Shown here in pieces: positions 32,892-61,071 of a stretch of DNA of 61,071 nt; position 1 is the first letter of the stretch; every line of letters begins with the position of its first letter. The position numbers and the translations under genes were made by a program. A model generated the notes under the pieces. That model did not search any database and was not told the DNA's origin. It saw only the letters and a list, made by a program, of their open reading frames with translations. The stretch lies in the NCBI GenBank assembly GCA_019448385.1, contig JAGTXO010000089.1, forward strand, positions 1-61,071, written 5' to 3'. This stretch comes from Diacronema lutheri. Taxonomy: Eukaryota > Haptophyta > Pavlovophyceae > Pavlovales > Pavlovaceae.

Positions 32892-32985
32892 TCAGAGCAT
32901 GGCGCCCGCCCGCTCGAGCCGGACCTCCGCGCAGCCGGACTCGCCCCGCCCCGGGCTGCTCTGGCTGGGCGACGTCGTGCGCGCC

Positions 32986-33284: not shown

Positions 33285-33460
33285 CTGCTTGGGCGCGAAC
33301 GGAAAACGCGCGAAGGGTGGCGACGAAGATCGTTGGGTTGGGTTGGGCCACCGGCTCCCGAGGATTGCTTGTGGCGCTCGACTGACCGTTGGCCCAGCTT
33401 TTTTTTTTCTCGAACCTACTGTGGAGCCGCCTGCAGCGTGATCTCCCGCGCACAACGACC

Positions 33461-38787: not shown

Positions 38788-38820
<33 letters not shown>

Positions 38821-39816: not shown

Positions 39817-39858
<42 letters not shown>

Positions 39859-41700
39859 CGAGGCGTGCGCGGGGGCTTGGGGTGGGCTCCGGGTGCCGGC
39901 GCTGTGCCAGCGGCGGGCTTGGTTGACGCCGTCTCGCCGGGGCCCTTGCGCCTTGCGGCGCGAGCGTCGCGGAGGGGCGTCGGCTGCGCTGGCTCCGCGT
40001 CGGCGGTGGCGTGGGGCAGGCTCTTGTGGAGGGCGGAGCGCTCGCGCACGAGTCGGTTGCCAAGGCGGGCTGTCTGCGTGCCGTTGGGCTGCGCTTGGGC
40101 AGGTAGGACCTGCGGCCTCGGGGGCGGGCGGGTTTTCGTGTTGGGCCAGGCGGCAACGCGCACCGGCCGTGTTCGCGGCCGGCAGGCGGACGTCCGCAGC
40201 GGGGCGGAGAATGCGGGTGAAGCGCTTGCACGGGCGCGGTTCGCACCTGGCGGCCAGGCGATCACGAACCGTTGGGTCGCCCGGCTGTTTGGTGGAGCCG
40301 AGGGCAGCAAGGATAGCGAGCTTGGCCGCCTCATCGGTGACGAGCGGCACTGTTGCCCAGCTCTGTACCTCGAAGCCCTGGATGTGCAGGCGTCGGGGAA
40401 GTTCCCGGCAGCGTCGCCTGCGTCCGTCGAGAGGCGGACCGAAGTCGCGCCCGTGCCCCCGTTGGCGACACCGAGCTCTCGCTCGTTCACACCGGCCCGC
40501 CGACGCGGGCGCGTGGTGCGCGCGCGTTGGGTGCGTGTCTGCCTCGAGCAGCGTGCCCAGTCGCAGTGTGGGCGCGTGTCCGTCTGCCTCAAAACGCCAC
40601 GTGGAGGGGAAGGCGCGGGGCGGGCTCGCCGAGGAGGTGCCGCCGCTCGCTGCCACCCGGCGCGGGCTCGGGGCAGCCGTCTTCGGGTGCCGCGCTCTTC
40701 GCGCCATGCACGAACGTTCCGCCGCGCTCGCAGCGCGCGAGCGCACACACAGAGCGCGCGGCGACCCCGGCGGGGGCAGTGCGTCCCGGTGGCACTCGCG
40801 GGCGCGCGCCTGGCCTGGGCGCAGCTGGGCGCGTTGCCGCCCGCGCAGCGAGCCGCCCGCGCGCCTCGCCGCGCGCGCGCTTCGTCGCACGCGTGCGCCC
40901 TGCATGCACGCGCACAGCGCGCGGCGGCTCGGCGCAGTGCAAGGCAGAGCGTGCTGCAACGGTTGCGAGGGCGCGCACGCGCGGCGCGGCGCGCCCCTGT
41001 GTGGTCGCCTGCGCGCGGCGCGTGGTCCGGACGCAGCTCGGTGGCGTGATGCCGTTCGTGCAACACAGTGCGCGTGAGAGCCGCACGTGCACACCTGCAG
41101 TGCAACGCGGCATTGCGCGCGTTGCGTGGGCGGAGCGCGGCTGGATGTGCTTGAGGTCGCGCAGCATGCCGCGCGCCGCGCGCTGTGCGGCGCAGCGAGT
41201 CGGCCATGCCCCTGGTCCTCGTCTCCGGGGGGGGGGGGGGGGGGGGTGGTGGTGGCAACCAGGATCCGCCAGCGCGTGGTGGGCGCCGTCCAACTCCCAG
41301 CCAGGATGCGCCCCGTTCTTCCCCGACACTCTCCGTCCAAACCCGCCGCCCAGCCTGCCGCCGCACCCGCCGCCAACGCCGCCGCGCACCCATCCGCCGA
41401 GCTCGCCTCGCGCGCGCTCGCGCTCACGCTGCGCGACGAGGCTGCGCAGGCCGGCGCGCGGCCGTGCAGAGCAGCGCAGGCCGGCGCGCGGCCGCGCGCG
41501 CGCGCTCACGTTGCGGCCGCGCAGCGAGCTTTCGCCGCGTCGCAGCCCCTCCGAGCAGCCACGATGCACGCCCCCGGAGGACGTTGGCCGCGCTCGGAGG
41601 CCGCGCTCGGGCGCGCAAAGAGAGGCGGCGCGGGCAAACGAGTAGGCTCGGCGCGCTGGCGGGTCCTGGTTGTGGGAGAGCGGGGCATTCTCCAGGGCAT
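39034..41700 (-). other. Unresolved minus-strand coding fragments with poly-C introns
   Basis: Several minus-strand stretches look coding but could not be joined. 40377-40247: exon-like, WATVPLVTDEAAKLAILAAL then GSTKQPGDPTVRDRLAA, flanked by CATCCAG and GTGCGA. 39784 downward: AVAGPQTQTLTCPTLGTEAA, with hydrophobic SLALTVAVAATVIAAGAAAL and SVFIPALLALAAYVG. About 39290-39130: FNPGPARSDCLTRASANLGG and RKAALLAVLVRRKYVILLLL. Runs of 20-39 G on the plus strand (39379-39414, 39820-39858, 41227-41246) are poly-C in this direction and often lie just before AG acceptors. One frame ends at 39034, overlapping the USP stop on the other strand by a few bases. Function unknown. Confidence 0.3.
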
Positions 41701-41765
41701 CATGTAAATTCTCCCAAGTATCATCCGGGCCGCCATCCGGACACTGACGTGCCCACAGTCTGCAG

Positions 41766-44700
41766 ATGGAGGACTCCGTGAAGGACGCTTTGCCCGGCGG
41801 GCGGGGCGGCTCGGACAGTTTCTCGCTGGCCCTCAGCACCATTCTGTCGCCGGGAGATACCCACCCCCACGTGGTCCCATCCACTTGCCTCATCGCCCTG
41901 CTGCGTTACGCGGATTTCGGCACGAGCAGGGTTAGGGTGGGCGACACGGGGTGCTCGCAGCATGCGCTCAAGGTGGCGCTGCGCAACCTGCGCAAAGCAT
42001 GCGCGGATGCGGACCGGTTTGGGCAGGTGCTCGTGGTCGTGCTACCGCTCTGCCTCCGCGCGTCCAGCGGCCTCGTGCACTGGACGGCGGCGTACCTGCT
42101 CCTCGCGCCGCCCGCGCAGCGCGGCGCGCCGCCCGGCGCCGCGCTCGCCCTGCTCGCCGATTCGCGCACCTTGGGCAACGGCGAATCGGCGTACGCCACG
42201 GCGGCCGGCGTGCTCATCAAGAAGCTTGCGCAGCGCATCGGCAGAACAGCGCCGCCCATCGATGCCTTCAAGGCGCCCCCGCAGAGTGGGGCCGCGTGTT
42301 GCTTCGCCGCGGCAACAGTCGCGGCCGAGGTCGTGGCGAGCGCATCGACGCTCTACGGCCGCCGCGCGAGTGTCCTTGTCGACATCAAGAAGGCTTTGGA
42401 CGCGCGCCTCGCGCGCCTCACGACGGCCGCGTACGAGGAGACCCGCGCGCGCACGCTCCGCGCCGCCATCGGCGCTCTGCTCGGCGACCGCGCCAGGCGC
42501 TTCGGCCCGTTCACCCGCGAGGCCGCGCGGCTCGCCGAGGCCGCGCGGCTCGCCGAGGCGTGCGATGCCAGTGTCGGCGGATCCGCGCCCGACGGGCTGC
42601 TGCAGGCCGTCGAGGCGGCGCTGCGCGCGCCCGACGACCGCATCGCACGCACGGCCGCGCTCGACGCGCTCACGGGCGCTGCAGGCCGCGCGCTGTCGAC
42701 GGCGGCCAGGCCGCGCGGCGCGGCGGCGCCAAGGCCGCCGTCGCGAGCGCCACCGCCGCGTGCGCCGCAGCGGCGCGCCGCCTCGGCGTGGGGGCCCCGA
42801 CCATTCAGCAGCCTCGGCGGGGGCGAGGGCGACGGGGACGATGGCGACGCCACCACCGCTGACGACGGGGAGGGCGCGGAGGACGGGGACGACGACCCCG
42901 CGGGCGCGGCGGCTGCGGCGGTGGCGACGGGCACGGCGGCGACGAGCGCGGTGGCGGCGGGCGCGGCGCCAACCTCGCCGGCGGCGGCGGACGGCGGTGG
43001 CTCGGCGCCGCTCGAACGCCGCTGCGTCTACACTGCGCCTGATGAGGGCGACGCGGACGCGCGCGTGTACGACGCCAAGGACCCCGAGCAGCTAAAAGCG
43101 GGCAGGGCGCGGCTACGGGCGAACAGCGGGCGCGCGCCCGCCGTGGTCGACACGCTTTTCGCGCACGCGACGGGCACGATCGTCACGCGGCAGCGCACGG
43201 AGGGCGTGACCGGCGCGGGCATGCACCACCTCGCCGCCCCGACGCAGGGCGCGGGGTACGGTGCCGTCGTGCGGGCCGAGCTGGGCGAGCCCGGCTTCGC
43301 GGGGACGACATGGCACATGACGTCGGGCGTGGAGAACCAGCCGCGCGCGGTACGAGCGGCCGCGCGCGCGTACGCGCACGACGGCTGGGGCGGCGTGTAC
43401 AATGCGCACGAGGACTTTGCCGCCTTCGAGGGCTTGCCGCGGCTCGCCGCGCCCGAATCGCTCGCGGCCATCGCCGGCGGGTCGGCGGACGCGGTGTTCT
43501 GCTGGCGGTCCGGCCGGTCCGTCATCGGCGAGGTGACGACGGTTCACTTCAATGGCGACCGCGCCGCCGCCATCGACCACGCGCGGGCGCTGCGCGTCAG
43601 GCCCGATTGGCGCTCGCAGCCCAGGATCTACGAGGCGGCGTGCGGCGCGGAGGGCACGGTGCTGCTCGTGTGGGTCGTGCCCGACCGTCACAAGAACCCG
43701 CGGCTGGACTGGGCGCCGATTCTCGTCGTGATCCACCTGCCCGCCGACCCCGACTGGCTCGCGCGCGCCACGCCGGCGATCGCGAAGGCGCGGCGCGAGG
43801 TCGAGGACGGACGCGCGCGCGCGGAGGCGCGCGGCGTGCCGCAGCACCTCGCCTACACGCTGAGCCCACGCTTCCGAGGCACCGCGCCGCGCGGAGCCGC
43901 GCGCGTGCCGCCGCGCCTCGGCGCGAGCGACGCGCGCGAGGCGCGCGCGCTCGCGGCGCTCGAGCCGGCGCTCATGTTCGCGCCGGCCTGGCGGCGCGCG
44001 GTGCGCGCGGCGAGCCGCGCCCCCGGCAGTGGCGCCGCGGCCGTCGAGCGCGCGCTCGCGCGCCTGCACAACGCGCTCGAGCCCGATGACGAGAGCGCGC
44101 CCGAGTCGACGCGCGTCGCGCCGCTCGCCGCCGCGCTCGAGCAGTCGGCGGGCTGGCCGGCGGGCACGGCGCGCATGGCGGCAAGCGTGACCAAGGGCCC
44201 CGGCGTCGGAGATGGCGCAGGTGGCGACGAAGTGACCAAAGTGGAGGAAACGGCGAAGACGAGCGGCGACGGCTGCACCGGCACGCCTCCTCTGCGCCCG
44301 GCCGCGCGCGCGGCCGGCGCGGCGGACGACGGAGGGGCGGCGGTCGTGGCGGGCGTCGAGGGCGAGCGCGACGCACTCGCCAAGACGGGTGCCGGCGGCT
44401 GCGACGACGACGCTCGCGAGCCGCTGTCGGCCGGCAAGCCCGGCGCACTCGCCGCCGCGGCGACCGTCGGGGGTCTCGGCGAGCTCGTCGGCAGCCTATG
44501 CGCGTGGCTGGCGCGCGGCGCGGCTGGCGGCGCCATCGCGGCCATCTCCCCCGGGACGGCCGCGCGCGGAGCAAACGGCACGCCGCAGCGCGCCGAGCCG
44601 CCGGCCGCCGGCGATCCCGTCGCTCCGCACGCGCGCGTCGCCGCTGCGGCGCCCTTGGCGGGCAGCGCGGCGGCGCCGTCGTCGGCCGCGCGCGACGCGC

Positions 44701-47700
44701 AGCGCGGCGTCGCGGGATTCGACGCGGCCGCGCACGCGCACGCGCGCGACGGCAGGCGGGCGGCACGGCGGATGCGCGAGCAGGAGGGGGCGGTGCACAG
44801 GGCCTTCCGCATGTCCCTCTGGCGCGACGCGACGTTTGTCGAGTTCGTTGAGAAGCTGCGCCCCGACGGCGGCGCGCAGCTGCTCGCGCGCGAGCCCACG
44901 CGGCGCGCGGCGGCGGTGCTGTGCGAGCTCGCGCGCGGCCGCGACGGCGCGAGCGGCGCGGCCGGGCTGCTGCACGAGATGAGAGCCGCCGATGCGCGCG
45001 CGCGCGAGGCCGCCAAAGCGGCGGAGGCAGCGCAGCTTGCGCACGGGACGCTGCGCATCGTGGCAACCGTGGCGCTGGGCGGTGCGGTCTTCGCCGGCAT
45101 GTCAGCGCTGGTCGTTGCTTGCGCGGCGCGCACGGCGACCGGTGCGCTTTTTGGGGCCCGCCGCCCGCGGGCGGCCGCGCGCGGAGCCGACGACGCGCTC
45201 GGCACGCTGCAGCGCGCCAAGCCGCCGCCCGCCGACAAGGGCAAGCGCAGGCGCGCCAGAGCCAACGACGACCCCGTCGACGCGGCGCGCAAGGCCGTGG
45301 GCAAGGCGGAGGGCAACTGCCGCAAGGCAGCCCGCCGGCTGCACCTCGCTGCACTGGGCGAGGAGGAGGCGCAGCAGCGCGTGCTCGACGCCGAGGCGGC
45401 GGAGCAGCTGGCGCGCTCGCGCGAGCCGGCCGGCGGCTGGGTAGGCAGCGCGCGCGCGCGCGCGCGCGCGCGCCCCGCCGCGCGCGCGCCCGTCGATTGG
45501 CGTGCGCGCAGCGCAGAACGGCGCGCCAGCTCCGTCACCTGCGCGCCGCCGCGCCCGTGCCCCTCGCGCGCAGGGGCGCCCTGCGGACCTGCGGCTGCAA
45601 CAGGCGCACTTTGGCATGCGCGAAGATGCCGACGCGGAAGTGCGCCGCGCGCACGAGGCGCTGCGCCGGGCGAGACAGGGTGTGGCGTGCGCCAAGGCCA
45701 GCGTGCGGCAGATGGAGGCGGCGTTGCTCAACGCGACGCGCTGCGCCACCGCGGTGCTCGCGCCGCGTGGCGTGCCGGAGGGTGACGAGCAGGCCGCGGC
45801 GAGAGAGCAGGCGGCGCTGGACCGGGAGGCGCCGCCGGCCGCGCAACGCGCGGCGCCGACGGCGCGCTCGCCCTCGGAGCCGCCGTCCGAGTGGGGCCCG
45901 CCAGCGGTCGGCCGGCGCCCGACGCCGCGTGCACTGTCGCACGCCGCGGGTCGCGGGGACGACAACCCGTTTGCGCCGCTCGCAACCGTCAGCGGCGATT
46001 GGTCGCCCACGCCGAGCTCGCGCTCGCCGTCCTCGCCGCCGCGGCAGCCGCCGTCCGACCGCCGCAGCGCGCAGCGTCGCAGCGCGCGCGCGCGGCCGCC
46101 GAGGCCGACCGTTTCGCCCGAGGACGCGCTCGCAGCCGAGCGCCAGGCGCGCGCGCTGTCGGAGCAGGCGGAGCAGAGGCGCGCCAAAAAGGCCGCCGCC
46201 AAGGCCGCGCGCCGCGCCGCGCGCGCCGCCGACAAGCGGACGGCGCGCGTCGTCCACGCGTGCGTAAGCGCCGCCTTGCGGCGCGTCTGCACGAGCGTCG
46301 CCACGGGCACGCCGCTCGCCGTGCTCCGCGAGCGCGCCGAGGGGCCGCGCGCGCCGAAGCCCGCGCCCGCGCCGCCACGCCGCGCAGCGGACGGCGGCCG
46401 CGCGCTCCGCCACGCGCGCCGTGCGGCCGCCGCGGCGGCGGAGCGCGAGGCGGCGGTGGCGGCCGACGCCGACGAGCGGTTCGAGCGGCAGCCCTCCGCC
46501 GCCCGGTTCGACGGCGGCGATGGCGGCGGAGGCGGCCACGTCGAGGCGAGCGCGCGACCGCGCGCCGGCGAGGCCGGCGAGGCTGGCGCGCACGGCGCGC
46601 CTGGCGCAGCGGGGACCCCGGCGGCGTCGCTCGCGTCGCGCAGCCCGTGTGATGCGCGCCGCACGGCACGCCTCCCGCACGCACGCGCCGCAGCCACCTG
46701 CGCACGCAACGGCGGCTGGGGTGGCAACGTCGGCGGCGACGTGTGCGGCGGTTGTTTCGGCGGCGGCGGCGTCCGTCGCGACGCCTGCGGCGGCGGCGAC
46801 GCCACCTGCGGCTGCGGCGATGGCGGCGTCGGTGCTGGCGCTGGCGAGGCCCCTGCACACGGTGCGCCGGCGCGCGCGACGGCGTCGCGCTTGCTGCGCT
46901 TGCTCGGCGCGCCACGCGCCGTGCTCGGTGCGATGGCGCACGCCGCGGCCGTGTTGGCGCGCGGCGTGGCCGCAGCCGTCGCTGGCGTGCGCGCCGCCGC
47001 GCGCGCCGTGCGGCGCGCGCGCCGCCGAGCGCCTCGCGCGCGCCGCACGGCTGCGCGGCGGGCTCGCGGCCCGCCGATGCGCGACGTCGACGGCGCCCTG
47101 CGGCCCTCGCCGTCCTGGTTGCGCACACGCCTCGTCTGCGGCCGGCGCCTCGCGCCTCTGCGCCGCGCGGGCGCGCGCCCGCCGCCCGCACACGCCGCGC
47201 CGAGTTCCCGCGCGCGCGCTGCGCAACCCGACAGCGACGCGCCGGCGTGCGCGCCGCGGCGCTCGGCGCCTGTCGGTGCGCCGCCGCGCGCGCGTGGCCT
47301 GCGCGCGGCGCGCGCACGGCGCTTCCTCGACGTCGCCGGCCGCGCGGCGCGGAGCGCGCGCCTCGGCGCGCGCATCACGCGCCAGCGCACGCCGGGTTCG
47401 CCATCGGAGCCCTGCACGGCCGAGAGCGGCGACGGCGCGGGCGCCGGCGGCGTCGGCGCGGCGGCGCCTGGCGCGGCGACGATGCGCGCCACCGGCGCGC
47501 GCGCAGCGCGCGCTGCGGCGGCGGCGGTCGGTGGCGCCTCGCGTCTCGCGCGCCGCGCGATGGCAAGCGCCGCCGCCGCTGCCACCTCCATCGCCGGCGC
47601 TGCCGCCTCCACCGTCGCCGCCGCCGCCGTTGCCATCGGCGCGGCCGTCACGTCACCGGCGTTCGCCGCGGCGCGCGGCATGGCGGCCGCATGCGTCGCT

Positions 47701-50021
47701 GCCTGCGCCCGCCCCACCGCCGCGCAGGCGGCCGCGTCGCGCGCGCTCGGCGCGCTCTTCGTGCTCGTCGACGCGGCCGACGCGGCGGGCGACAGCGACG
47801 CCGCGCTCGGCGCGCTCGCGGCCGCGGTCGACGCGACGGAGCTGCGCCCGCCGCCGGCCTTTTGGCGCGCGGGCCGCGCCGCGGCGTACGCACCGCGTCC
47901 GCCGCCCCTCGACTCGGCGCGGCCGCGCTACAACCGGCGCGCGCGCGCACCTAGCCCTCCCGTCGCGGCCGCGCGGCGCAATCTCGCGCGCGCGGTGCGC
48001 GAGCTCACGCGCGCCGCGCGCGCTGAGCGCGAGCGCGCGCCGGCGCCGCGCGGCGCGCGCGGCGGCGTGCTCCACGCGCTGCGCGCGTCGCTCCCCGTGC
48101 ACGCGCGTGCCGCGCTCGGCACGGACGCGGAGCTGCGCGCGGACATCGCCGCGTTCGCGCGCGCGCGCCGCGAGCTGCACAGCCTCACCGACGCCGAGGT
48201 GGCGGCGCTCGCGCGCCCGGACGGGCCGCCGCTGCCCGTGCGGCTCGCGTGCACGGCGGTCGCGCGCGCGCGCGGCGTGACCGTGCTGCTCGACATCGTG
48301 CCGCGCGGCGGCGGCGCGCCCGAGCGGCTCGTGTGCCGCGCCCGTCGCCGCGGCGCCGCCACGCGCACGCCACGGCCGACAGCCGCCGTTATCGCGCGCG
48401 CGCCTTGCATAGCGGCGCGCGTTGGCCACACTGAGCCGGCGCGCGCGTGCGCGGGCGGATCGATCGGGGTCGCGCGCCTCCGTTCAGCGCGCCGCCGCTC
48501 TTGTCGTGGGGCGCGGCTCGACGTGCACACCCGCGAGCGGCTGGCCACACCGGTGCCAGGCCACGTCGTGGCCTGCGCCGCCGCCTCGGCCATCGGCGCG
48601 TGCGTCGCTCGCGCGCGGCTTGGGCTTGCACGGCTGGCGCGCGCGTGGCCCTGCGCCTCCGCTCCACTGGCCGCTGCTGCTGTCGCCTTCGCGCCTGCCG
48701 CCGACGGTGTTTTCTGCGCCCCGCTGGGCGCTCCTGCATCCGCCTTCGCGCCTGCCGCCGACGGTGTTTTCCCCGCCGCACTAGCCGCTGCTGCATCCGC
48801 CTTCGCGCCTGCCGCCGATTTTCCCGCCCCACTAGTTGCTCCTGCATTCGCCTCCGCGCCTGCCACCGACGGCGTTTTCCCCGCCCCACTAGCCGCTGCC
48901 GCTGCCGCGTCCGCGCCCGCCGCCGCGGGCGCGTCTTCCGCCCCACCAGCCATCGCCGCCGCGCCCGCCGCCAACGCGCGCACCGCCAACGTGCCCGTTG
49001 CCAACGAGGCTACCGCCACCGAACCAGCCGCCCTTGAGCTTCCCCTCCAACCCGCCAACTCGGCGCTGCTTGCGTGGGCGGGCGACGCGGCTGCGCGCCG
49101 GCTGGCCGCCGCCGCCGCGAGCGCCGGCCTCCCGCAGGCAGAGGTGGAGCGCATCGCCAGCGGCGACATGCTCGCCTCAACCGTCGACGCGTGCTGCGAG
49201 GTCGTGCTGCGCGTGCACGGGCAGGCCGGCGGCGGGCATGTCTGCCACGTGCCGCTCGCCGCGCAACCCGCGGTGTTTCAGGACGACGCCGAGCGCGCCG
49301 CGCTGCTGCACCGCCTGCGCAGCGAGGCGACAACGCAGGCTGTCATCGGCGTGTGGAGCCCGTCGGACGAGCGCGGCGGCGCGGGCGGTGACGACGGCGC
49401 GCAGCTCGCCTCCGGCCATTTCACCGCGTTGCGCCTTGTGCGCGTCGCGCGCGCGGGCGAGCATCGCTACGACGCGGTGCTCGTCGACACGCTCGCGTCG
49501 CCCTGCAGGCAGGCGCTCATGCTCGCCAAGGCGATAACTGCCACGCTGCACGCGGCGGGTCTCGACATTTCGCGCGTGCGCCGCGCGCTGCTGCTCAACG
49601 AGGCGGCGCAGCGTGGCGCGACGTGCGGCCTCGCGATAGTGGGCGCGCTCAACGACGCGCTCGCCGCGGCGGGCTGCTCGTCCGCGCCGCGCACGTTCAG
49701 CGTGGCGGACATGTACGCTGTCGGCGAGCGCCTCCGCGTCGCGCTGACCGGCGCGGCCAGCGATCGTGCGCCGGGCGGCGTCTGCGCGGTCACGAGCGCG
49801 GTGCGCGGCGGGGGCAGCCCCGATGGCGCCGAAACGCCGCCGCAGACGCGCGGCGCCAAGGCCGCCGCTGGCGTCACCGCCGCCGCCACCGCCGCCGCCA
49901 CGCCGCCGCCGCCCGCGCTGGGCGCCGCCGCCGCCGCCACCGCCGCCGCCGCCGCTGCTGCCGCCGCCGTGGCCGCGCCGCCACCGCCGCCACCGCCGCC
50001 GCCGGCCGGCGACGCGGGCGA

Positions 50022-50100
<79 letters not shown>

Positions 50101-53100
50101 GCCGCGCGCACGTTCTTGAAGCTCGCGCCCAGGGCGCGCGCGGCCGCCTCGGCGCGTGAGGCGTTGCGCGCCGCGTGTGCGCGCGCGGACGCGGCGGCGT
50201 CGTCACACGCGTCGGCGCCGCACGCGCCCGCCGGTGCGCGCCGCCGGCGGCGCGCGGGCGCAGGCGAGCTGGCGCTCGCGGCTGCGCGCGCGCTCGCCTC
50301 GACGGAGCACGGCGATTTGACGGACGACGCGCTCGAGGCCGCCGTCGAGCAGGAGCTGGGCGACGAGCGCGGCCAACTGCTGCTGTGCACGCGGGGCGCA
50401 GCGGCGCAAAGGCCCGCGCTTTGCCGGCTCCTGAAGCACGCGTGCGCGTCGGCGCGCGCGGCGAAGCGCGCGCAATTCACGGTGTTCGTCGTGCGCGCGG
50501 CCACGCGCGGCGAGCGGGGGGGCGCCGCCGCGAGGCGCGTGGACTCGGTGGTCGAGCTGTCGTGCGCGCTGCACGAGAAGGCGGGCGCGCTCGGCGGCCT
50601 CCAGCGCGTCTGTGTGCGTGGCTTCGCCCTCGAGCGCCGCCGGACACTCGACGCTGGCGCCGAGGCCGGCGCGTCCGCCATCGGCCAGGACGAGCAGGTC
50701 GAGGCAGAGGCGGGCGAGGCGTGCGTCGCCGGCGTGACGATGGCCAAGCAGCTGCGTCAGTTTGCCGAGCAAGCTGCCCGCGACGACGTGCTCTTCCACG
50801 TCGCCGTGTCCGAGGCCGACGCCCACGCCCGGCTGGCGCGCGTTGCGGGTGACGATGTCGGCGCGTACAGCGTCGTGCTCGCAGTCGCCGGGCTCGTCTG
50901 GCTGGCCAAGGCCGACGAGGTTGCGCCGGCGGCCGCCCAGCCCGCCGCCGTGCCGCCCGCCGCCCCGCCTGCTGCCGCCACGTCCGCCGACGCCGAGCGC
51001 GACGCCTCGCCTTCCGACCGCCTGCGCGCGCTGACGCTCGCCGTGCGAGTCGCGCTCGCGCGCGGCGTGCTGCGCCACCTCCTCGCCGACGCGTCGCCGG
51101 GCGCGTCCGCGACCGCTGGCGGTAGTTGCGCGACGCCCGTCGAGGCGGCCACGTCCGCCGCCGCGCCGCCCGCCACGGGCGTCGTGACGAGTGGCGTTGC
51201 GGCGGGCGCTGTGGCGGCCGCACCGGCTGCTGCGGGCGGTGCGATGGCGGGTGCATCGCCCATCACGCGGCCGGCGAAGCGCGCGCGGCGCACGCTCACC
51301 GCCGCTCCAGCCGCCTCGGCCGTTGCGGCCGCTGGAGGCGCACGCGCGGGCGCACGCGGCGCGGCCGGCGCGCCTCGCGCGCGCGCCGCGCGCGCGCCGG
51401 CCGAGTACGTCTGGCTTGCCATCGCGCGCCGGATGCTGGCGGCGCGACACGCGGCGGCCGCGGGCGGCGACTTTGTCGCGTCGTGCGTCGCCGCGATGCA
51501 GGCCGAGTACGGCGACGGCTGTGCCGTCGTCGTCGGCGACGCGCCTGATGACGCCTTGGTCGAGGCTGCGGCGGCGGCGCTGCTCGAGGGCAAGCACGCG
51601 GCGGTGAGCCTCGGCTGCGTCGACCGGCCGGCGGTGCTCGTCGTGCAGCGCGCCGTGGACGCGCCCACGTCGCGCGTGCACGGGTGGTGCGCGCACGCGG
51701 CGGGCGCCGCCGAGTTTGACGAGGGCGCCGCGCACGGCGTGTTCAACGCGATCGTCGAGCGCGCGTGGGCGCTGCGTCCGGACCCGGCCGACGGCAGCCC
51801 GCCGCCCACGCGCACGTGGGAGGTCGAGCAAATCGCTGGCGACGCGCCCGACCAGGCGGGCGTGGCCGCGCTGCGCGTGCTCTACGCGCTCGTCGCGGCG
51901 CACGGCCGCTACCGCTCGGCCGCCGCGCTCTTTGGCGCGCTCGCGCAGCTGCACGCGCCCGACGCCGCCGGCGCGCGCGCGGAGGTCGTCGCGGCGGCGT
52001 GCGCGGTGCCGCCCGGCGCGCGGCCGGGCGCCGCGCCGGCGGCCGCGCGGGACGACGCGAGGGAGCGCGCATGGGACGGCGCTCAGATCGCCGCGCTCGC
52101 CGTCGGCGCGGACGCTGCGCGCAGGCGTGTCGCGCCCGTGCGCGCGCTCGTCGACGCGCTCGGCACGCCACCGACCTCGGCGATCACGGGCGGGCCGGCG
52201 GTCCGGCTCGCGGGCGCGGGCGACGGCGGCCACGGTGCACGGTGGGTGGGCGGGCAGGCGGCGACGCCCGCCGAGCAGCTGCCGAGGGAGCTGCTGCGCG
52301 CCTACCACGAGGCGGTGCTGTGCGTCACGCCCGGCAGCCTCCAGCTCGGCCCGGCGGCGCTCGACGCGGTCACGCGGCCGCGCGAAAACGACACGCTGGA
52401 AGGCCTCCTCGCGCGCGTCAGCTGGCAGTGCGGCGCGAGGGCGAGCACGTGCGCCATGCTCGCCACGTTTTCCGAGCAGGCGGGCACCGGCTCGCGCGTC
52501 GCGCTCAAGGCCCTCCGCACGAGCTCCGACCTGGCCGGGCTGACGGCGGCTGCGGTCGGGCAGCAGGCGCCGCAGACGCCGCCGCCGCCGCTGCTCGTGA
52601 TGCTCGGCCGCTGCCCCAGCCCGCTCGTCGGCGGCGGCCTCTTCCCGCCCGACCGCGCGACGGGCGAGCCGGCGGTGCACGCGGCGACGTCCGAGCTCGC
52701 CGTCGAGCTGCTGCGCGACGCGCGCGCGCTGGCCGGCACGGACGGGCGGCTCGTCGTGCTGTGCCTCGAGGCGTCCAACCCGCTCTGGTTCTGCCCCAAG
52801 GTGCGCGAGCTCGAGCTGCCGCGGACGCGGTCGGACGGCGTGCGCGCGTCCGGCTGCACCTGCCCTGCGACGTGCAGCGATGCGCGCGGCGCGGCGGGTG
52901 GCGCTGCCCGCGGCGCATCGACGCGGCCGGCGGCGCGCGCGATCAACAAGGCGGTGCTCGACCACTTCGTCGCGCTTTTCGGCCGCGAGGGCTTCGCGAC
53001 CTTTGAGTTTGCGGGCGGCGGCGAGGCGAGCTGGCTGTGCGACAGCGCGGCCGGCACGACGACCGTCGCGGCGTGCGCGTCGCTGCCGCCGCGCATGGGC

Positions 53101-56100
53101 GATGGGCAGCTGGCCATCCGGCGGCACACGCTCGGCACGGGCGCCGACGCGCCGGCGCACGCCGTCGTCTCGCTCCGCGTCGCGCACGTGAGCCACGCCA
53201 TCCGCCGCGCGGCGGACGACGGCGGCGCGCGCGCCGAGCGGATGGCGCGCGCCGCGCGCGCGTTCTGCGATGTGGCGGCCGCGCTGCGCGTCGACGCGAT
53301 CCTGGCGGAGGTGCCCGAGGACCGCCCGACGGGCACGCCCTTCCTTGGCGGGCTGCTCAAATGTTGGGACAAACGCAACGGGAGCTGGACGGCGCCAGCC
53401 ACGCTCGCGCTCGGAGACGTGCGCGAGGTGGCCAAGCGGACGGCCGACGCAGCGGCCGGCCGAGCGGACGAGGTCCCTGCGGCTGGCCGTCCGCAGGTCG
53501 CGGCGCGCGCGTGCGCTGGCGCGATTGGCGGCGGCGCGGGCGCGGCGGGCGCCTCGGACGCTGCGCCGCGTGCACTGGCGGGCGCGTCGGGTGCGCGCAC
53601 GGACGGCGGCCCTGCCGACGCACCGCGCCAGCTGGAGAGCCGCTACGGCGAGGCGAGCAAGCTCGACCTACCCCAAGATTCCACTACGGGCCGCGTCCTC
53701 GACGCTCGCGAGGCCCAGGACCGCGCGCGCGTGCCTGCTGCGCCCGACGGCACAGCGCTGCGCCGCGTGCTCGACGCCGTCGGCGCGGGCGCGCCCGCGC
53801 AGCGCAGCCCGCGCTGGCACGACGAGCGATGGGAGGAGGTCACGGGCAGCAAGGTTGGCGACGTCGTGAACGACAACGCCGGCGTCGCGCACGAGACGCT
53901 CACCGACGAGTACGTGCACCGGCGGCGGCGCGAGGTGCGGACCAAGGCGACGACCGCGGGCATCCTCGGCGAGGCCGTCGCGCTGCGCAAGCTGGCGGCC
54001 GCGTACGGCATCACCGTCGTGTGCAACCTGCCGATGGTGCGTGCGGACCCGCACGACAAGAGCGCGCCGTTCGCCTTCTCGCCGGACGGGCTCGCCATCC
54101 TCCCCGAAAACAACGAGCAGGTCCTCGTCGAGGTGAAGACGCTCACCAAGGCGGGCGCCACGGCGCACGAGGACGGGCCGCCGCAGCCGCACCGCGATCA
54201 GCTGCAGCTCGGCATGCACGTCCTCGGCGTGAGCAAAGCGCTCTACGTGCAGTACCTCAGGCACGAGGACCGGATCGTCGTGCACGTCGTGACGCGCGGC
54301 GCCGGCTGGCTTGCATTCGCGCAGCCGAGGGTGCAGGCCTTCTGGGCGCGCGTCGTCGAGCGGCGCGCGCGGCTCGAGCGCGCGCGCGCCGACCACCCGG
54401 CTGCGAGCCGGCGGCACCGGCGGCAGCAGACGCCGGCCGGGCCGCCGCTCGTGCTCGCGCTGGACGGGCGCATCCCCGCCGCGCGCGCCGCCGCGCTGCA
54501 CGCCGTCGCGCACGGCACCGCGAGCGCGGCGGCGGTGACGGCGGCGGCGGCGACGGGCGACGCGACGGCGTTGCAAGACGCGATCGCGGCGCTGCGCGCG
54601 CCCGTCGGCAATGCGGCGATCGACAGCGCAGCGCGTGCGGAGCGCGCGGCCGTCGAGCGGGCGATCGCGTACCTCGGGCAGCCGACAGGCGACGCCGCCG
54701 CCCGCGGCACGGCCGAGGCGGCCGAGGAGGAGAGGACGGTCGACGCCGACATCTGCGCGTTGCTGCACCAGCTCGGCGCGAGCGTGGCGCACGTGCACGT
54801 CGAGGACGCGGATTGCGTCACGCGTGAGCACTGGGGCGGGGCGGTGCTCGCTGCAGCGGGCGACCCGTCGAGCGCCCCCGCCATTTCGAGCGTCATCGTC
54901 GCGCACATCGTGCGCCTCGCCGGCTTTGGCGTCGAGCTCCCGCAGTCGATTCGCGTCGCCCCCAGCACGGCCGACTGGCACGAGGGCTGGCTCGACGTGC
55001 AGTGCGTGCTGCTGCGCACGCGCCGGCGCGGGCGGCGCGACGACGACTTTGTGGCCGTCGTCAGGCGCGGTGGGCGCTGGTTTGCGTGCGAGCCCGGCCG
55101 CGCGCGGCGGCTGCAGTGGCGGTCGGTCCTGCGCCGCGCGCGCGGCGGCGTCGACGGGACCGGCGAGGAGGCGTTCGCGGTCGTCTACGTGCGGCGCGGC
55201 GACGCGGCCGGCGACGCGGCTGGCGACGCGCAGGCCGAACGGGCGCGCGGCGGGCGCGCGCGCAGGCGCACGCGCGGCGGCACGCGCAAGCGCAAGCGCG
55301 GCGCCTCCGCCGGGCTCGAGGCGGCCGCGCCCGCCGGCGCGCCGGCGGGCGCTGCTCACCGCCCGCCCGCCAGGCGTGCCACGGTCGCCGCGCGCACCAC
55401 GCGCTCTGTGACCGACGCGCGGCACTCGGCGCCTGCCGCCACGGTTGCACCTGTCTTCGACTGGCGCGCCGGCCGCCCGCCCCCTGCCGCCGCCGCCGCC
55501 GCCAAGCGCGGCCAGGCGCTCGAGCCGGGGCAGTTCGCGCGGCCGCGTGGGCGCGCGCCATGGGGCAAGGTCTGGGACAGAGTCTCGGGTGCGTGGGCGG
55601 ACAAGCCGACTGGTGCTGCCGTCGCCGCCGCGCCGCCGCCGCTGCCGCCCGCCGCCGCGCCGCCGCCCGCCGCCGCGCCGCCGCCCACCGCCGCGCCGCC
55701 GCCCGCCGCCGCGCCGCCGCCCGCCGTCGCGCCGCCGCCCGCCGCCGCGCCGCCGCCGCCGCCGCCACCGGCGGCGCTCGGCCGCCGGCAGCACGTCGGC
55801 GCGGGCGGCAGCGCGGCGGGCCGGCGGCTCGCGGCCATCGCACGGCGGCAGCGCGGCGTGCGCGCGCCGCCGCCCGCCGCGCGCTTCCTCGCCACGCTGC
55901 CGCCACCGCCACGCGACGGCCTCGCGCGCACGAGCAAGCAGGCGCGCGCGAGGCGCAACGCGGACGGACGGCCGGCGCACGCGCGCGCGGCCAACGCGCG
56001 CGCCTTCTACCGCGGCGTGGAGCTCGGCGTGCACGCGACGCGCGCCATCGTCGACGCGCGCCACGCCGACCTGCCGCAGGCCGTCTTCGTGGCGGAGGCG

Positions 56101-59100
56101 CGGGCGATCGTCGCGCGCTCCGCCGGCGGCGGCGCGCTGCTCGCGCCGGACGACGTGCGCGACCTGTGCGACGCGCAGACGGACGCCGATCGCGCTGCGA
56201 TCTGGGCGTCGGTGGGCGCGCACGAGGCGACGCGCATCTTCGCGCTCGTCACGCGCAACGCGAGCTTGGCGGGCGCGGCGCTGCTCGTGCTGCACACGCC
56301 GGCGGGCGCGCCGGCGCGCGCGCTCGGGCTCCTGGCGACGCGCTCGCGCGCGCCGTCGACGGGCGCGCCGCGCGACGCGCACAGGGCGCTGGTGCAGCGG
56401 TTGGACGTGCTGATGGACGCGATCGCCGCGGCGCGAGGCGCGTCGCCGCTCGAGCTCGAGCTCGCGCTCGCGCCCGAGCCGCAGAGCGCGTGCAACGCGC
56501 GTGCGGCCGCGCTGCTCTGCCTGCAGGCCGTCGCGGACGCGAGCGGCCGTCCCGCCGCTGAGGACGCGCTGGCCGCGCTCGACGACGCGCGCGGCATCGA
56601 CCGGCACTGCCACGCCGTCCGGCAGCAGATCGAGGCGAAGCTCGCGTGGCGGCGCGCCGACGGCGCCGTCGGCGTTGACGGCGCCGACGGCGCGCCCGCG
56701 CTCGCGCCTGCCGCCGCACCGCCGGCGTGCGCGCCGGCGCACGCTGCCGGCGAGGCGGCGGTCGACCAGGCGATCGTCACGCGGGTGCGCGACGCGCTGC
56801 GCGCGTGGGCGACGACTGGCACCGCGCCCAGCGCGGCGGTGCTCGACGACGCCTGCGCCGCGTACACGGCCCGCGCACGCGCGCGCAAGGACGCGCGCAC
56901 GGCGCTGGGCCCGACGCGCGCGGCCGAGCTGCTCGCCGCGGCCGCGCGCGGCGGAGCCGACGGGGCGGATGCCGCGCGCGCGCTGCTCGGCGGCACGCCG
57001 CGCCTGCTCGTCGTGCTCCTCTGCGTGCCCGTCGCCGCGCCGTCCGGCGAGCCGCCGCGCCCGGTCGGGCTGCTCGTCGCCGACCGGCCGACGGACGACT
57101 CGCGCCCGGCCGCGCTCGTGCGCTACGACTTTGCGCCGCTCGACGCGGACGTGGCCGTCGCGGTCGGCGCGCATGCCGTCGCGCTGGCCAGTGCGATCTG
57201 GCCGCTGCTCGCGGCCGAGGGGGAGCCGCGGCCATCGCCCGTCGTGCGCTCGCAGCCGCGCGGCGGCGACGATGGCGCGCGTGCGCTCGCAACGTTCGCG
57301 TGCCTCGACGCGCTGATGACCGCCAGCGTCGGCGCGCACGGCCTCGCGGGCGGCGCGGGCATGCTGCCCGCGCTGGTCGCGCGAGGCGCCGCGGCCGCCC
57401 AGCGCGAGCGGCAGCTGCGCGCGGCCGCCGAGAGGCTGGGCGGCACGGTCGCTGGGTGGCCGGACACGGGCGCGAGCGCGGCGGGCGCGAGCGTCGACGA
57501 GGAGGCGCGCACGTACGAGGTCGAGGCGGTCGTCGACGAGCGCCGCAAGGCGGGCAAGAAGGTGACGTTCCAGTTCCGGATCAGGTGGTGGGGCTACGAC
57601 GAGAGCGCCGACACGTGGGAGCCTGAGGCCAACGTGAGCAGCGACCTCGTCGCCCAGTTCCGCAAGACGCGCGACGAGCAGAAGCGGCGCGCGGGCGTAT
57701 CGGGCAGCGGCAGCGGCGGCGCGGGCGCGGCGTCGGCATTGGCGTCGGCGCCGCTTCGCGCGCACGGCGAGTCGGGCGCCGCGGGCAAGCGCGCCGCGGC
57801 GGGTGCCGCCGCGAGCGCGCGCGACGCCGCGGGCGCGCGCGCGCCGAGCGTTCCCCGCGCGCGCGGCGTCGAGCGCGCGCGCGTGGACGAGCCCGCTGCG
57901 CCGAGCGCGCGCGCCGCCGGCGGCGCGACGGCGCGCACGCGCGTCAGCGTGCTCCCGGGCTTCGTGGTCAAGCGCTCGACGCTCAACGCGGGGCCGCAGG
58001 CGGTGACGGCGCAGCCCGGTGCGCGGAAGGAGCTGCGGCGCATCGCGGCGGCCGTGCACAGGCTCACGACACAGGCGTACCGCGTCATCAACAAGGTGGT
58101 GCGCGACGAGGCTGCGGTGGCGAGCGCGCAGGCCGTCGGCGCGGCGTCGGGCGGCCCGTCGACCAGCGTGCACACGTCGACCACGATGGACAAGGGAACC
58201 GTCCGTGCGATCTTCTCGGCCATCGGCTGGCACAAGGACGAGAGCACGTACGGTGCAGCGCCCCGAGGCAAGCCCGCCGAGCAAGCCGCCGCGCAGACCA
58301 AGGCGGCGACGGCGCGCGCCGTCGGCGAGATGGCCGAGGGCGTCCAGCCCGTCTGCGCGGTGGGCCTCACGGAGATCCTCGAGGCGGACGCGACGCAGGT
58401 GTCCACCGCGTGCCTGATGCATCCATCGCGCGTCGTGAACGGGCTGCTCCGCGACGTCGTCCGCGCGGCAGTCGAGCGCGACGAGGCGCTCGTCGCGCTG
58501 CCCGAGATGCAGCGAAACGCGCGCGTGCGCGAGCTGTGCGAGCGGCTGCTGCGCGGCGACGTGGAGGGCGCGCGCGTCGGCTGCCCCGCCGCGCTCGACC
58601 GCCACCTGCCCGACATGGTCCTCCACAAGATCGACTACAAGTGCACGCCCACGAAAAGGTGGAACTACGACCGGCACACGACGCGCTACTTCCTCGTGCA
58701 GATCCGCACCCTGCAGCACGTGGCCGAGGGGCAGGCGCTGCTCTGCCGGCTCGCGCACATCCACACGCAGCTGACCGGACGGCCGCCGCGGTACAATGTG
58801 GCGCCGCTGCGCACGCACAATGTGCGCGCGAGGCGTGGCTGCCGCTGCCGCCGCCGAGCGCCCAAGCGCGCGCGCCGCCGCCGTGCGCGCCGCCCCGCGG
58901 CCAGGTTGGTCACGCGCCCGCGCGCTCGCGCGCCGCGCGCTGCGCGCAGGTGCCGCGCAACGTGCGCCTCGCCGCGAGCGCCATCTGGGTGACGCTTTCG
59001 GATGACGAGCGCAAGGAGCTGCGCGCGCGGCTCAAGGCGCTGGACCTGCGCGACCACGATGGCGAGCCGATCAAGTGGACAGGCACAAACGGCAACACCC

Positions 59101-60330
59101 CGCCGATGTCGGACGTGCGCGTCAGGTACGCGGTCTTTGCGACGCGCTTCGACATCTCCAACCGCGTCTTCGACTACGCCGGGCGCGAGCGGCCGCCGGC
59201 CGATCTGCCGTGGCACGCGCGGCGCTCGTGGGTTGGCCTCGCGCCGCTGCCGCGCGTGCCGCTCCCGGGCCGGCAGCCCGTCAAGTCGGTGGTGACAGAT
59301 GGCGTCGCCGTGCACGCCGTCGGGACCGTCCTCGTGCCGAAGGCGCAGGCGCCGGCCGGCGGCTCGGGCGTCCTGCACCGCTGGCGCCGGCCGGACGGGC
59401 GCATCGCCGTCGCGCTCGGCTCCGAGCTGCGGCGGGCGATCGACGTCGAGGCGGCGGTCGTCGTCGCGGCCGACCCGAACATGGGCAACATCACCACCTA
59501 CTCTGCGCACGTCGGGCGGGCGGCCGTCTGGCGGCAGTTCACGCAGCGCGCGCGCGCGCGCGCCGCGGGCTTTGCGCGCGAGACGGCCAAGACCAACGCG
59601 GCGCGGCGGCGCGTGCGCAAGGACGGGCGCGGCGAGGAGTTCAGCGTGGAGGCGGACGAGGCGCGGCTTGGCGAGGCGCACAGCGCCAAGGTGCTCGGCG
59701 AGGGCGAGTTCCACGCCTTCCACCGCGAGAGCGCGCGGGTGCGCGAGCGCGCCGCCGAGCACGTGTACGACGCGCCGGCGCGCCGGAAGGAGCGCTGGCG
59801 GCGCGACAGCGGCGGGCGGTCCAACGCGGCGCGCGTCGCCGAGGCGCTCATCGCGGCGCACTGTGTCGACGGCCGTGACGCGCGACCGGCTGCTCGTGTG
59901 CGTGGGCAAGTGGCTGCGCGACCACAAGGGCGCGCAGCCCAAGGGCGCGCCGCCCGCCTTCCAGGTGGGGCTGCTGCGCGAGCTGCGGCGGCGCGGCCGT
60001 CGCGGCCGTCTTCGTGCCCGAGCCGTACACGTCGATGCACTGCTCGATGCCGCGGCTCGCCAAGGGCGGCAGGCTGCAGCGCTGCGGCGCGGAGCTCGCG
60101 CAGAACCCGCGCCTGCCCGTGGCAAAGGGCGGCACGCGCACGGTGCACGCGCTCGTCATCTGCCCGGCGTGCAACGGCGGCAAGAAGCCCGTGCACCGCG
60201 ACTACAACGCCGCGCGCAACATCTTCTACGACGTGCACGACATGGCGGCGCACGCGGCCGGGCGCGACACCACGTCGACGCCTGAGCGCTTTGCCCTCGT
60301 GCTCGCCTGGTGGGCGCGCGGCGAGGTGTG
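41766..60330 (+). CDS. Giant multidomain protein: Ulp1-like peptidases, YqaJ nuclease, chromodomain, Fanzor1
   Basis: Exon 1 41766-45440, exon 2 45604-58821 (13.2 kb without a stop), exon 3 from 58950. Joins are in frame: REPAGGW|AHFGMRED and LRTHN|VPRNVRL. The frame codes for more than 5,600 residues before it breaks in the Fanzor part. Order: Ulp1/C48-like peptidase (residues ~40-190), a possible nuclease-like domain (43030-43880), one transmembrane helix (about 45046-45130), coiled coil, long Ala/Arg/Pro-rich linkers, a second Ulp1-like domain (49060-49760), two degenerate peptidase-like domains (50280-51990), YqaJ nuclease (53790-54380), two more peptidase-like domains (55970-57340), chromodomain (57513-57668) and Fanzor1. 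It may be a polyprotein, a multi-gene read-through with unrecognised introns, or a true giant protein. Transcript evidence is lacking. Confidence 0.6.
41880..42360 (+). other. Ulp1/C48-like cysteine peptidase domain 1
   Basis: N-terminal domain of the giant frame. The catalytic order matches Ulp1/adenain-type peptidases: His in SGLVHWTAAYLLL (codon 42078), Asp in LLADSR (42159), Gln in APPQSGAACCFAAATVA (codon 42282) and Cys at 42297 or 42300. Spacing is about right for the family. Adenain-like proteases serve capsid maturation in Polinton-type and other viruses, whereas Ulp1 removes SUMO; sequence alone cannot choose. Confidence 0.65.
45441..45603 (+). other. Intron 1 of the giant gene
   Basis: Donor GTAGGC after EPAGGW, acceptor CTGCAACAG before AHFGMRED. 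Removal joins two coiled-coil segments in phase 0. The intron contains a long GC dinucleotide run (about 45450-45475). Confidence 0.7.
48660..48910 (+). repeat. ~63-bp coding repeat (FAPAADGVF...)
   Basis: Four imperfect copies of a unit reading CCTTCGCGCCTGCCGCCGAC then GGTGTTTTC and a CCGC/CTGCT tail. They encode an Ala/Pro/Phe-rich linker just before the second peptidase domain. Confidence 0.8.
49060..49760 (+). other. Ulp1/C48-like cysteine peptidase domain 2
   Basis: Best-preserved copy. His in ASGHFTALRLV (codon 49417), Asp in DAVLVDTLASP (49486), Gln in NEAAQRGATCGLAIVGAL (49609) and Cys at 49624. The QxxxxCG arrangement is the Ulp1-clan active site. Followed by a long poly-Ala/Pro linker (49850-50110). 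Confidence 0.7.
50020..50103 (+). repeat. (GCC)n run coding poly-Ala
   Basis: An uninterrupted GCC trinucleotide tract encoding about 25 consecutive Ala within the giant protein. Likely slippage-prone. Confidence 0.9.
50280..51990 (+). other. Two degenerate peptidase-like domains
   Basis: Two regions repeat the general pattern of the intact domains but have lost catalytic residues. At about 50860 the expected Cys region reads DDVGAYSVVLAVAGLVWLA. At about 51820 it reads EQIAGDAPDQAGVAALRVL, with Gln and Gly kept and Cys absent. The repetition suggests duplication followed by decay or conversion to binding modules. Weak similarity; structure comparison is needed. Confidence 0.4.
53790..54380 (+). 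other. YqaJ/lambda-exonuclease-like PD-(D/E)XK nuclease domain
   Basis: Motifs in the YqaJ order: SPRWHDERWEEVTGSKVGD, TTAGILGEAVALRKLA (Glu codon 53971), FSPDGLAIL (Asp codon 54085), VLVEVKTLTK (Glu 54130, Lys 54136), and HRDQLQLGMHVLGVSKALYV with the downstream Gln. All core catalytic residues are present. These alkaline-exonuclease-type recombinases are common in phages, large DNA viruses and eukaryotic transposons, where they process ends for recombination. Confidence 0.82.
54720..55200 (+). other. Unassigned globular domain
   Basis: Well-conserved-looking, low-bias sequence with HVHVEDADCVTREHWGGAV, GWLDVQCVLLRTRR and DDFVAVVRRGGRWFACEP. The last part resembles the HxVVxRxxxxWxxxD region of cysteine-protease folds, but Asp replaces the His. 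No family assigned. Confidence 0.35.
55640..55775 (+). repeat. APPPAA coding repeats
   Basis: About seven copies of an 18-bp unit (GCGCCGCCGCCCGCCGCC) encode APPPAA/APPPTA, a proline-rich linker that follows the segment PRGRAPWGKVWDRVSGAW. Confidence 0.85.
55970..57340 (+). other. Ulp1-like domains 5 and 6 (Cys kept)
   Basis: Two adjacent repeats with the form L(L)V-x-G-x-R-x-x-GLL, later Gln-to-Cys boxes. Domain 5 has EPQSACNARAAALLCLQAV (Cys codon 56491). Domain 6 has RSQPRGGDDGARALATFACL (Gln 57253, Cys 57301). The HW-type His is not clear in either, so activity is doubtful. Confidence 0.45.
57513..57668 (+). other. Chromodomain
   Basis: YEVEAVVDERRKAGKKVTFQ leads into FRIRWWGYDESADTWEPEAN and a C-terminal helix (LVAQFRKTRDEQ). 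The aromatic cage positions (Tyr, Trp, Trp) of methyl-lysine-binding chromodomains are present. In chromoviruses such domains guide integration to marked chromatin. Here it precedes the Fanzor module in the same frame. Confidence 0.85.
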
Positions 60331-60680
60331 GGAGCGTGAGGAGCGCATGGTGCACGGCGAGGGCGACGACTGCGACGACGAGTGCGACGGCGACGACGAG
60401 GGCGACGACGAGGGCGACGACGACGACGACGACGATGGCAGCGGCGACGGCGGCGGCGGCGAGGGCGACGGCGACGGCGACGGCGACGGAGGCGGCGGCG
60501 GCGACGACGACGATGACGGCGGGGGAGGCGGCGGCGGCGACGGCGGTGGCGACGACGGCGGCGGGCGCCGGCGGCGGTGGCGGCGGCGGCTCTCGCGCCC
60601 GCACCCCCGCCCGCGGAGCTGCCAGCGCCAGTGCCGGCGGCGGCAGCGCGCGCGGGCCGAAGCGCGGCCGGCGTTGACGC
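57950..60680 (+). pseudogene. Fanzor1 (eukaryotic TnpB-like RNA-guided nuclease) module, frame-disrupted
   Basis: Continues the chromodomain frame. N-terminal helices include RKELRRIAAAVHRLTTQAYR. After intron 58822-58949, KSVVTDGVAVHAV matches the TDGVxxxV motif of Fanzor1. RuvC-I Asp lies in VVAADPNMGNITTY (codon 59472). Downstream come VGKWLRDHKG, RuvC-II Glu in VPEPYTSMHC (60020), a four-Cys zinc ribbon (60041, 60083, 60161, 60170) and RuvC-III Asp in VHRDYNAARNIF (60200). The frame shifts by +1 near 59885 and again near 59995, so Glu and the zinc ribbon lie out of frame with the rest. A long Asp/Gly-rich tail follows (60345-60560). All catalytic residues are encoded, so the breaks may be recent, or assembly errors. 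Its mobile-element context fits Fanzors. Confidence 0.78.
58822..58949 (+). other. Intron within the Fanzor module
   Basis: Donor GTGCGCGCG after LRTHN, acceptor GCGCGCAG before VPRNVRLAAS; 128 bp, phase 0. A spliceosomal intron inside Fanzor supports long residence in a eukaryotic genome. Confidence 0.72.
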
Positions 60681-61071
60681 ACGGCCGAGCCGCGCAGCGG
60701 TCGACGCTTTGCGGGCTCTGCCCAGGTCGCGCGCGGCTGGCGACGCGTGCCGCGCGCGGCACGACCGTGCACGCCGCCACCCGTGGCCGAGCGCGCCGCA
60801 CCAGCCGGCCCGCTCCAACCGCCGTGCGGATCACGGACGCTCGCTACGGCTCGTCGGCGCGCGTCACCTGCGCCGGCGGCCACGGCGCCGTCTGCTCCGG
60901 CCTCGTCGCGAGCAGCCCGACCGCTGCTCGCCGCCCGCACGCCGCCGCAGCAACGCTGCGCGTCGTGCTCCCCCGCTCGCCAAACGCGAAGAGCTCCTCA
61001 CAAGGACGTCCTTCCGAACGGCCCGCGCTGCACTCGGGGCGCGATCGTGCCCCTGATCGGATTTGGCTTGA
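60681..61071 (+). other. 3' flank of Fanzor to the window end
   Basis: The frame holding the Fanzor zinc ribbon stays open to the last base, with Arg/Ala-rich sequence and one less biased patch (VRITDARYGSSARVTCAGG at about 60824-60880). Fanzor guide RNAs and element ends usually lie just 3' of the nuclease, so they may be here or beyond the window; no hairpin or terminal repeat was identified. Confidence 0.35.

Follow-up and report, generated by a model that had tools for sequence, protein, structure and literature searches.

The right half of contig C20 of the Diacronema lutheri assembly (GCA_019448385.1, JAGTXO010000089.1) is a mobile DNA element of about 31 kb that is young and present in high copy number. 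The entire contig (61,071 bp, hereafter the window) was analyzed against the assembly of 43,492,796 bp in 103 contigs. An original prediction, made from the letters of the window, had suggested a large uncatalogued mobile element including a PIF1-like helicase and a USP gene. This suggestion was strongly borne out by sharp ends, more than 200 copies, and near identity among the copies.

A high-copy element with two fixed ends

Based on comparisons with other contigs, copies part from the window at position 30027 on the left and, on the right, 10 bases after the window ends; all copies read part at these identical two points. With up to three mismatches allowed, 236 left ends and 219 right ends occur in the assembly, while the reversed-pattern control gave 0 for both. 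Additionally, the segment of the element that encodes a YqaJ domain has at least 149 copies at 98–100% identity (149 were scored among 237 first-look candidates), and an internal stop is found in 2 of the 149. The open frame around these copies measures 4,400–4,600 codons in 66 and at least 4,000 codons in 104 of them, with a range of 1,084–6,136. One copy, on contig C9, matches window positions 30019–46688 at 99.7–99.8%, and the right end of the window is matched by four copies whose right ends are 99.9–100% alike. A check set beforehand was whether the domain order is missing from any other copy; the matches over these stretches, one for 30019–46688 and four for the right end, do not refute the element. 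Because the many dispersed, near-identical copies have the same two ends and differing flanks, the stretch is a mobile element.

To estimate its share of the genome, the first 100 listed of each end list were paired with the nearest partner on the same strand within 60 kb, which gave 62 pairs. Among the 60 pairs shorter than 35 kb, 26 span 30.5–31.5 kb, 13 about 21.6 kb, 8 about 26 kb, and 8 about 29.2 kb. The mean paired length is 27.6 kb (the two larger pairs excluded), and the estimated element total is 6.0–6.5 Mb, or 13.9–15.0% of the assembly.

Several other contigs start or end at element ends, and at least 14 contigs stop at one common point. As reported, the assembly was built from PacBio reads with an N50 of 23 kb. 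The breaks arise because a 31-kb repeat is longer than most reads and was not bridged. A telomere-specific element was also considered, because many contigs break off at its right end and telomere repeats open the window. It was ruled out by copies throughout long contigs and because contig stops at element ends are the expected assembler failure at a long repeat.

Junctions and the route of insertion

The left junctions read carry TATATA in 21 of 22 cases and TATAGA in one, with C before the motif in 17 of 22. Among the 100 listed of the 236 left ends, the base after TATATA is C in 54, G in 42, T in 2, and A in 2. On the right, CATC-TATAC was read in 25 of 26 distinct insertions and TAACG in one; these come from 28 rows in which two insertions were read twice, with five loci short of flank or anchor and the window itself (L036) left out. 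The element has the left terminus GGCGC and the right terminus TATAC. No terminal inverted or direct repeats were found beyond shuffles, blastn of the outer 3 kb of each side against each other gave no match, and hairpins at the DNA ends fold no better than shuffles. Apart from TATA, and from one exceptional copy described below, the junctions show no duplicated target bases. In the simplest reading, GGCGC...CATCTATAC would be inserted after the target TATATAN, the variable bases belonging to the target and the constant bases to the element.

A second dispersed repeat, ending GTCGGAAAGCGTCGTTAG, occurs at 219 places (up to two mismatches; control 2). At the 20 places fetched (L070, L079, L086–L105), the next bases are TA in 20 of 20 and TAT in 19 of 20. 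The end of this repeat, or of a similar one (L077, L081, L082), adjoins the left end of the giant element in 5 of 22 junctions, which means that these families have a TATA target in common.

Searches for the enzyme of insertion covered several families. No Pfam transposase family was recognized in the element frames scanned, that is, the main frames and part of the short ones, and the Pfam scans of element frames gave no reverse transcriptase. Tyrosine recombinase PF00589 has 16 matches in the assembly, none of which lies, by comparison of coordinates, within the copies placed among those listed; this search could miss diverged recombinases, and no genome-wide search for serine recombinases was made. 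The 16 tyrosine-recombinase-like frames may belong to DIRS or Crypton elements; on C17, one of them is found 4.5 kb to the left of a giant-element copy. Helitron_like_N has a single match in the assembly (C63:35738–36019, E value 8.3e-23) and none in the element. Since no recombinase, transposase, or Rep protein was found, the route of insertion is read from the junctions alone, and it is probably of a non-DDE kind.

A giant DDE cut-and-paste transposon that duplicates TATA and has very short or no inverted repeats would account for TATA on both sides of most copies and for the discrete deletion classes (21.6, 26.2, and 29.2 kb) that are also amplified. The KDZ, EnSpm, and Sola-1 elements of the brown alga Ectocarpus offer a parallel, as they too are algal, in some cases larger than 30 kb, high in copy number, equipped with extra genes, and accompanied by amplified deleted forms (PMC12477816). 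However, those giants have DDE transposases (PMC12477816), whereas the Pfam scans recognized none in the frames covered here; inverted repeats beyond shuffles are lacking, and the preferred flanking bases differ between the two sides (TA at the left, C at the right). We therefore regard a DDE transposon as improbable.

The variable base N on the target side and the constant C on the element side, as well as the lack of terminal repeats, would fit an element moved by a tyrosine or serine recombinase, such as a Crypton, in which the short core TATAC recombines with the target core TATAN. One paper mentions an association of Fanzor1 with Cryptons. In contrast, none of the PF00589 matches falls in the placed copies among those listed, and an exchange at both junctions should sometimes vary the right base, which is C in 25 of 26 insertions. 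This origin appears rather unlikely.

Finally, a Helitron or Helitron2-like rolling-circle element whose Rep was lost, diverged strongly, or is supplied in trans is an unlikely source. The Chlamydomonas Helitron2/Fanzor1 elements CRe-1,2,3 (Bao and Jurka 2013, PMC3627910) resemble the giant element in being algal, in carrying a Fanzor1-type protein as cargo, and in their AT-rich insertion motif. The RepHel of their autonomous partners has a PIF1-type helicase (PMC3627910), and the giant element also encodes PIF1, with a 2B domain; insertion after an AT-rich motif without obvious duplication and the Rep-like match on C63 point the same way. However, Helitron_like_N is missing from the element despite its more than 200 copies, neither an end hairpin nor an inverted match between the ends exceeds shuffles, and the ends read GGCGC...TATAC rather than TC...CTRR or a Helitron2 end structure, the left terminus departing from the published rule of T or TC. 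Compared with CRe-1,2,3, the giant element is about 31 kb long, has no recognized Rep or proven hairpins, and adds YqaJ, a chromodomain, and USP.

The giant frame and the modules of the element

A frame of 4,515 codons (45445–58992, plus strand) is free of stops. In simulations of 41766–61071 (100 per Markov order, 300 in total), the longest open plus-strand frame was 1,284 codons at order 1, 2,158 at order 2, and 2,738 at order 5, which excludes a chance open frame in GC-rich DNA as the explanation of the giant frame. The opposite strand of this region has an open frame of 1,787 codons. The GC content of the three codon positions has a coding-like pattern between about 48.9 and 58.8 kb and is ambiguous at 46–48 kb, where the translation is rich in Ala and Arg. 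The upstream frame (41748–45785) and the frames past about 58.8 kb differ from the giant frame. Thus, of the more than 17 kb originally described as nearly stop-free and in one frame, the 4,515-codon frame is real, while other frames hold 41.7–45.4 kb and the part of the Fanzor-like nuclease with the catalytic residues. The modules are spread over at least three frames, which two phase-0 GT-AG introns could plausibly connect (Table 1). On the sequence, the chances are even that splicing would join the upstream exon (41766–45440), the giant frame, and the Fanzor-like exon into a single product of roughly 6,200 residues. The planarian element Burro is comparable in its polyprotein of about 5,000 residues with many added domains and its repeat of more than 30 kb (PMC6431247). 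In contrast, Burro is a long terminal repeat (LTR) retroelement (PMC6431247), and neither a reverse transcriptase nor an LTR was found in the giant element.

Table 1. Features of the element and its target in the window (window positions)
Feature	Position	Strand	Remarks
Target motif TATATAG	30020..30026	+	directly left of the element
Mobile element	30027..61071	+	about 31,055 bp; last 10 bases, ending CATCTATAC, lie past the contig end
Probable small gene(s), short frames	30030..31738	-	weak; no Pfam match in three frames scanned
Nested palindrome, about 0.9 kb, lower GC	32018..32904		right of the minus-strand frames, left of the PIF1 gene
PIF1-family helicase gene, three frames	33461..36400	+	includes an N-terminal region of about 310 residues
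USP-type (UCH) deubiquitinase-like gene	36890..38386	+	Pfam UCH E value 4.3e-8 over 89 residues
Putative first exon, or a gene of its own, preceding the giant frame	41766..45440	+	coding-like GC phase; no Pfam match
Putative phase-0 GT-AG intron, upstream frame to giant frame	45441..45603	+	sequence reading
Giant frame	45604..58821	+	stop-free 45445-58992
YqaJ/RecE-like exonuclease domain	53817..54230	+	Pfam placement; PHROG_434
Chromodomain	57514..57666	+	Pfam; residues 4024-4074 of the giant frame
Probable N-terminal half of Fanzor-like nuclease	57925..58821	+	frame of the chromodomain; assigned by eye
Putative phase-0 GT-AG intron within the Fanzor-like coding region	58822..58949	+	sequence reading
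Catalytic half, Fanzor/TnpB-like nuclease	58950..60677	+	Pfam TNB; D-E-D residues, C4 finger; more than one frame

The YqaJ recombination nuclease and the chromodomain that had been proposed in the giant frame were both recovered by profiles. For YqaJ, PHROG_434 (RecE-like exonuclease) matches over the whole domain at an E value of 4.9e-17, and the PDG, EVK, and Q residues are present by eye. TIGR03033 matches at 6.3e-7, under its cut-off, and Pfam at 9.5e-4 (19.9 bits), below the 22-bit cut-off; a PDB sequence search with this segment gave no relevant match. Along its full length the domain thus has the profile of the RecE/lambda-exonuclease family, whereas here it belongs to a eukaryotic mobile element and sits inside a frame of 4,500 codons. 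The chromodomain matches Pfam at 2.5e-11, and its nearest PDB sequences are CDYL (best, 3.7e-10), CDY1, HP1, and Clr4. By eye, the domain retains what we take to be the HP1 residues of the aromatic cage.

A Fanzor nuclease had also been predicted, and a Fanzor/TnpB-like assignment agrees with the zinc-ribbon profile and the motif spacing. In the window copy, single-base length differences break the catalytic half into more than one frame; four other copies (L032–L035) lack these differences and carry it in a single frame. The zinc ribbon (Pfam TNB) scores an E value of 4.1e-5 in the window copy, below the cut-off, and 1.9e-6 in another copy, where 28.4 bits exceed the cut-off of 26.3. The published Fanzor motif, D-X(125,275)-[TS][TS]-X-X-C4-X(5,50)-RD, is found in copy L034 as D-X(184)-TS-MH-C4...RD, with a spacing of 184. 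In L034 the first residues read D-P-N, the D and E are 182 apart, and the E and the D of R-D are 60 apart. The corresponding catalytic positions of SpuFz1 are D383/N385/E541/D606, and its target-adjacent motif is CATA (PMC10432273), which is not unlike the TATA of the element. The D-E-D residues, the C4 zinc ribbon, and the position at the right end are thus shared with Fanzor/TnpB and SpuFz1 (PMC10432273). Unlike SpuFz1, the Fanzor-like part appears to belong to a single-frame fusion in which a chromodomain precedes it, and its RNA guidance is predicted. The N-terminal half has no profile or PDB match, and a PDB sequence search with the three Fanzor pieces of the window gave no relevant match. 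The giant frame has no Met codon between the chromodomain and this N-terminal half, which suggests that the two would form one protein.

Outside the giant frame, the presence of the PIF1-like helicase and USP genes is confirmed by Pfam, and both lie within the element. PIF1 matches at 3.4e-14 (33461–34771) and 3.9e-24 (34642–35790), the latter with Pif1_2B_dom at 2.4e-13; for the last PIF1 piece (35655–36461), which is assigned by eye, Pfam gave no match. In the USP-type gene, what are presumably the Cys and His boxes were seen by eye. In contrast, the proposed array of Ulp1/adenain peptidases was not confirmed, as no peptidase match was obtained for these segments with Pfam or, over part of them, with PHROGs and NCBIfam. 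The H/D/Q/C patterns, which we take to be Ulp1-like, were seen by eye and have no profile support; a possible Ulp1-like N-terminus in 41766–45440 was likewise not confirmed by profiles. No internal repeats of peptidase modules emerged when the frames were compared with themselves and one another by blastp. Single-sequence structure predictions had a predicted local distance difference test score (pLDDT) of 42.9 for the Ulp1-like segment and 34.7 for another and were not used.

The palindrome of the element has nested arms of 207 nt at 98% (32018–32224 and 32683–32889) and 174 nt at 95% (32223–32396 and 32512–32685), and many of the substitutions that separate the C9 copy from the window fall within it. 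Left of the element, the window begins with a (CCCTTA)n telomere repeat of 22.7 copies (1–136), whose 24-mer occurs 964 times in the assembly. The left half of the window carries host-type genes, including several calponin-homology domains at 10565–15345 (E value 8.7e-46) and an NmrA/NAD(P)-binding protein at 15613–16455. A tandem array of a 14-base unit repeated 95.5 times (8057–9387) lies inside a 2,168-codon open frame on the minus strand.

A virus-derived origin had also been raised for this gene set. An integrated virus or a virus-derived replicon amplified in the genome would agree with the replication-like genes, and YqaJ-type exonucleases occur in large DNA viruses. Fanzor genes are also reported from large DNA viruses. 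However, Pfam scans of the main frames and part of the short ones recovered neither capsid nor packaging nor DNA polymerase families, and searches of viral contigs with the YqaJ, Fanzor exon, and PIF1 queries, which detect close relatives only, found no relative. We consider a viral origin very improbable.

Proposed mechanism and significance

Among the explanations considered, we lean towards a new giant element that would insert by a site-specific or replicative, non-DDE route and whose Fanzor-like part would be an RNA-guided retention nuclease. For the retention role taken by itself, the chances appear even. In the proposed mechanism, the TATAC end of the element would pair or recombine with a TATAN target, through an enzyme yet unrecognized or supplied in trans. 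PIF1 and YqaJ might unwind and resect DNA while the element is copied or recombined; the combination of a helicase, a 5'-3' resection exonuclease, and an RNA-guided-type nuclease suggests copying by recombination. The chromodomain could tether the protein to chromatin with methylated histones. Additionally, the Fanzor-like nuclease at the right end of the element may take its guide from the flank just past TATAC and cut unoccupied sites of TATATAN plus flank. As a result, the element would be copied back into them, a form of retention or homing. The guide of TnpB systems is located immediately past the right end of the element, and the target-adjacent motif immediately left of its left end. 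By analogy, the layout here would match this order: TATATAN precedes the element, and the flank that follows TATAC would supply the guide. A right-end RNA is described for Fanzor/TnpB systems (PMC10432273). It is quite improbable that the element represents a whole new class, in which a spliced RecE-like/chromodomain/Fanzor protein of about 6,200 residues would combine RNA-guided cutting of TATA sites with copying by recombination and dispense with a classical transposase.

Several observations weigh against the favored reading. No recombinase, transposase, or Rep was recognized in the element, and the four size classes indicate that deleted forms are also mobile. The junctions would also fit a TATA duplication of 4 bp with an invariant C after it, and empty sites, sought via the repeats adjoining left junctions, were not obtained. 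The TnpB profile scores are modest, with NCBIfam at an E value of 0.017, far below the cut-off; PDB sequence searches gave three weak matches, of which the sole related one is Cas12f1 at 0.25. Folding of the putative guide-RNA region does not exceed that of shuffles (z -1.28), 25 of 200 of which were as good. Changes among copies show no synonymous excess, since 15 of 48 shared changes are synonymous against 26% expected (P 0.25) and 5 of 19 singleton changes against 26–27%. This comparison covered the giant frame in the window and 20 copies, which were chosen as the best by YqaJ identity, so the YqaJ segment was excluded. As there is no synonymous excess, the copies evolve without visible constraint after insertion. 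One further copy stands apart, as L066/L051 (C9:2907801–2938842) carries GCGAGGACTATAT on both flanks, which neither insertion model explains.

In the other paired flanks, no duplication like that of L066/L051 was seen by eye. In the 21 giant-frame stretches compared, 18 have no stop; indels common to groups of copies measure 3, 18, 24, or 33 bases, and single-base indels occur in a few copies. An Rfam scan of the window gave 0 matches.

In the literature searched, with subscription journals mostly outside its coverage, we found no account of an element composed of these parts. The published assembly of D. lutheri NIVA-4/92 has 73.25% GC, and the genome paper reports 22.9% repeats, with 32.7% of the masked bases assigned to LTR elements and 3.8% to long interspersed nuclear elements. 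In its main text, no word beginning with "transpos" and no "virus" occurs. The element accounts for at least 14 contigs stopping at one common point. If the present reading is true, one unnamed element would make up an estimated 14–15% of a genome published as streamlined. It would also provide a natural system in which one frame unites a chromodomain with a Fanzor-like nuclease, the target motif is fixed, and more than 200 insertions have been mapped. What use Fanzor is to its element, a question of long standing, would then become directly testable.

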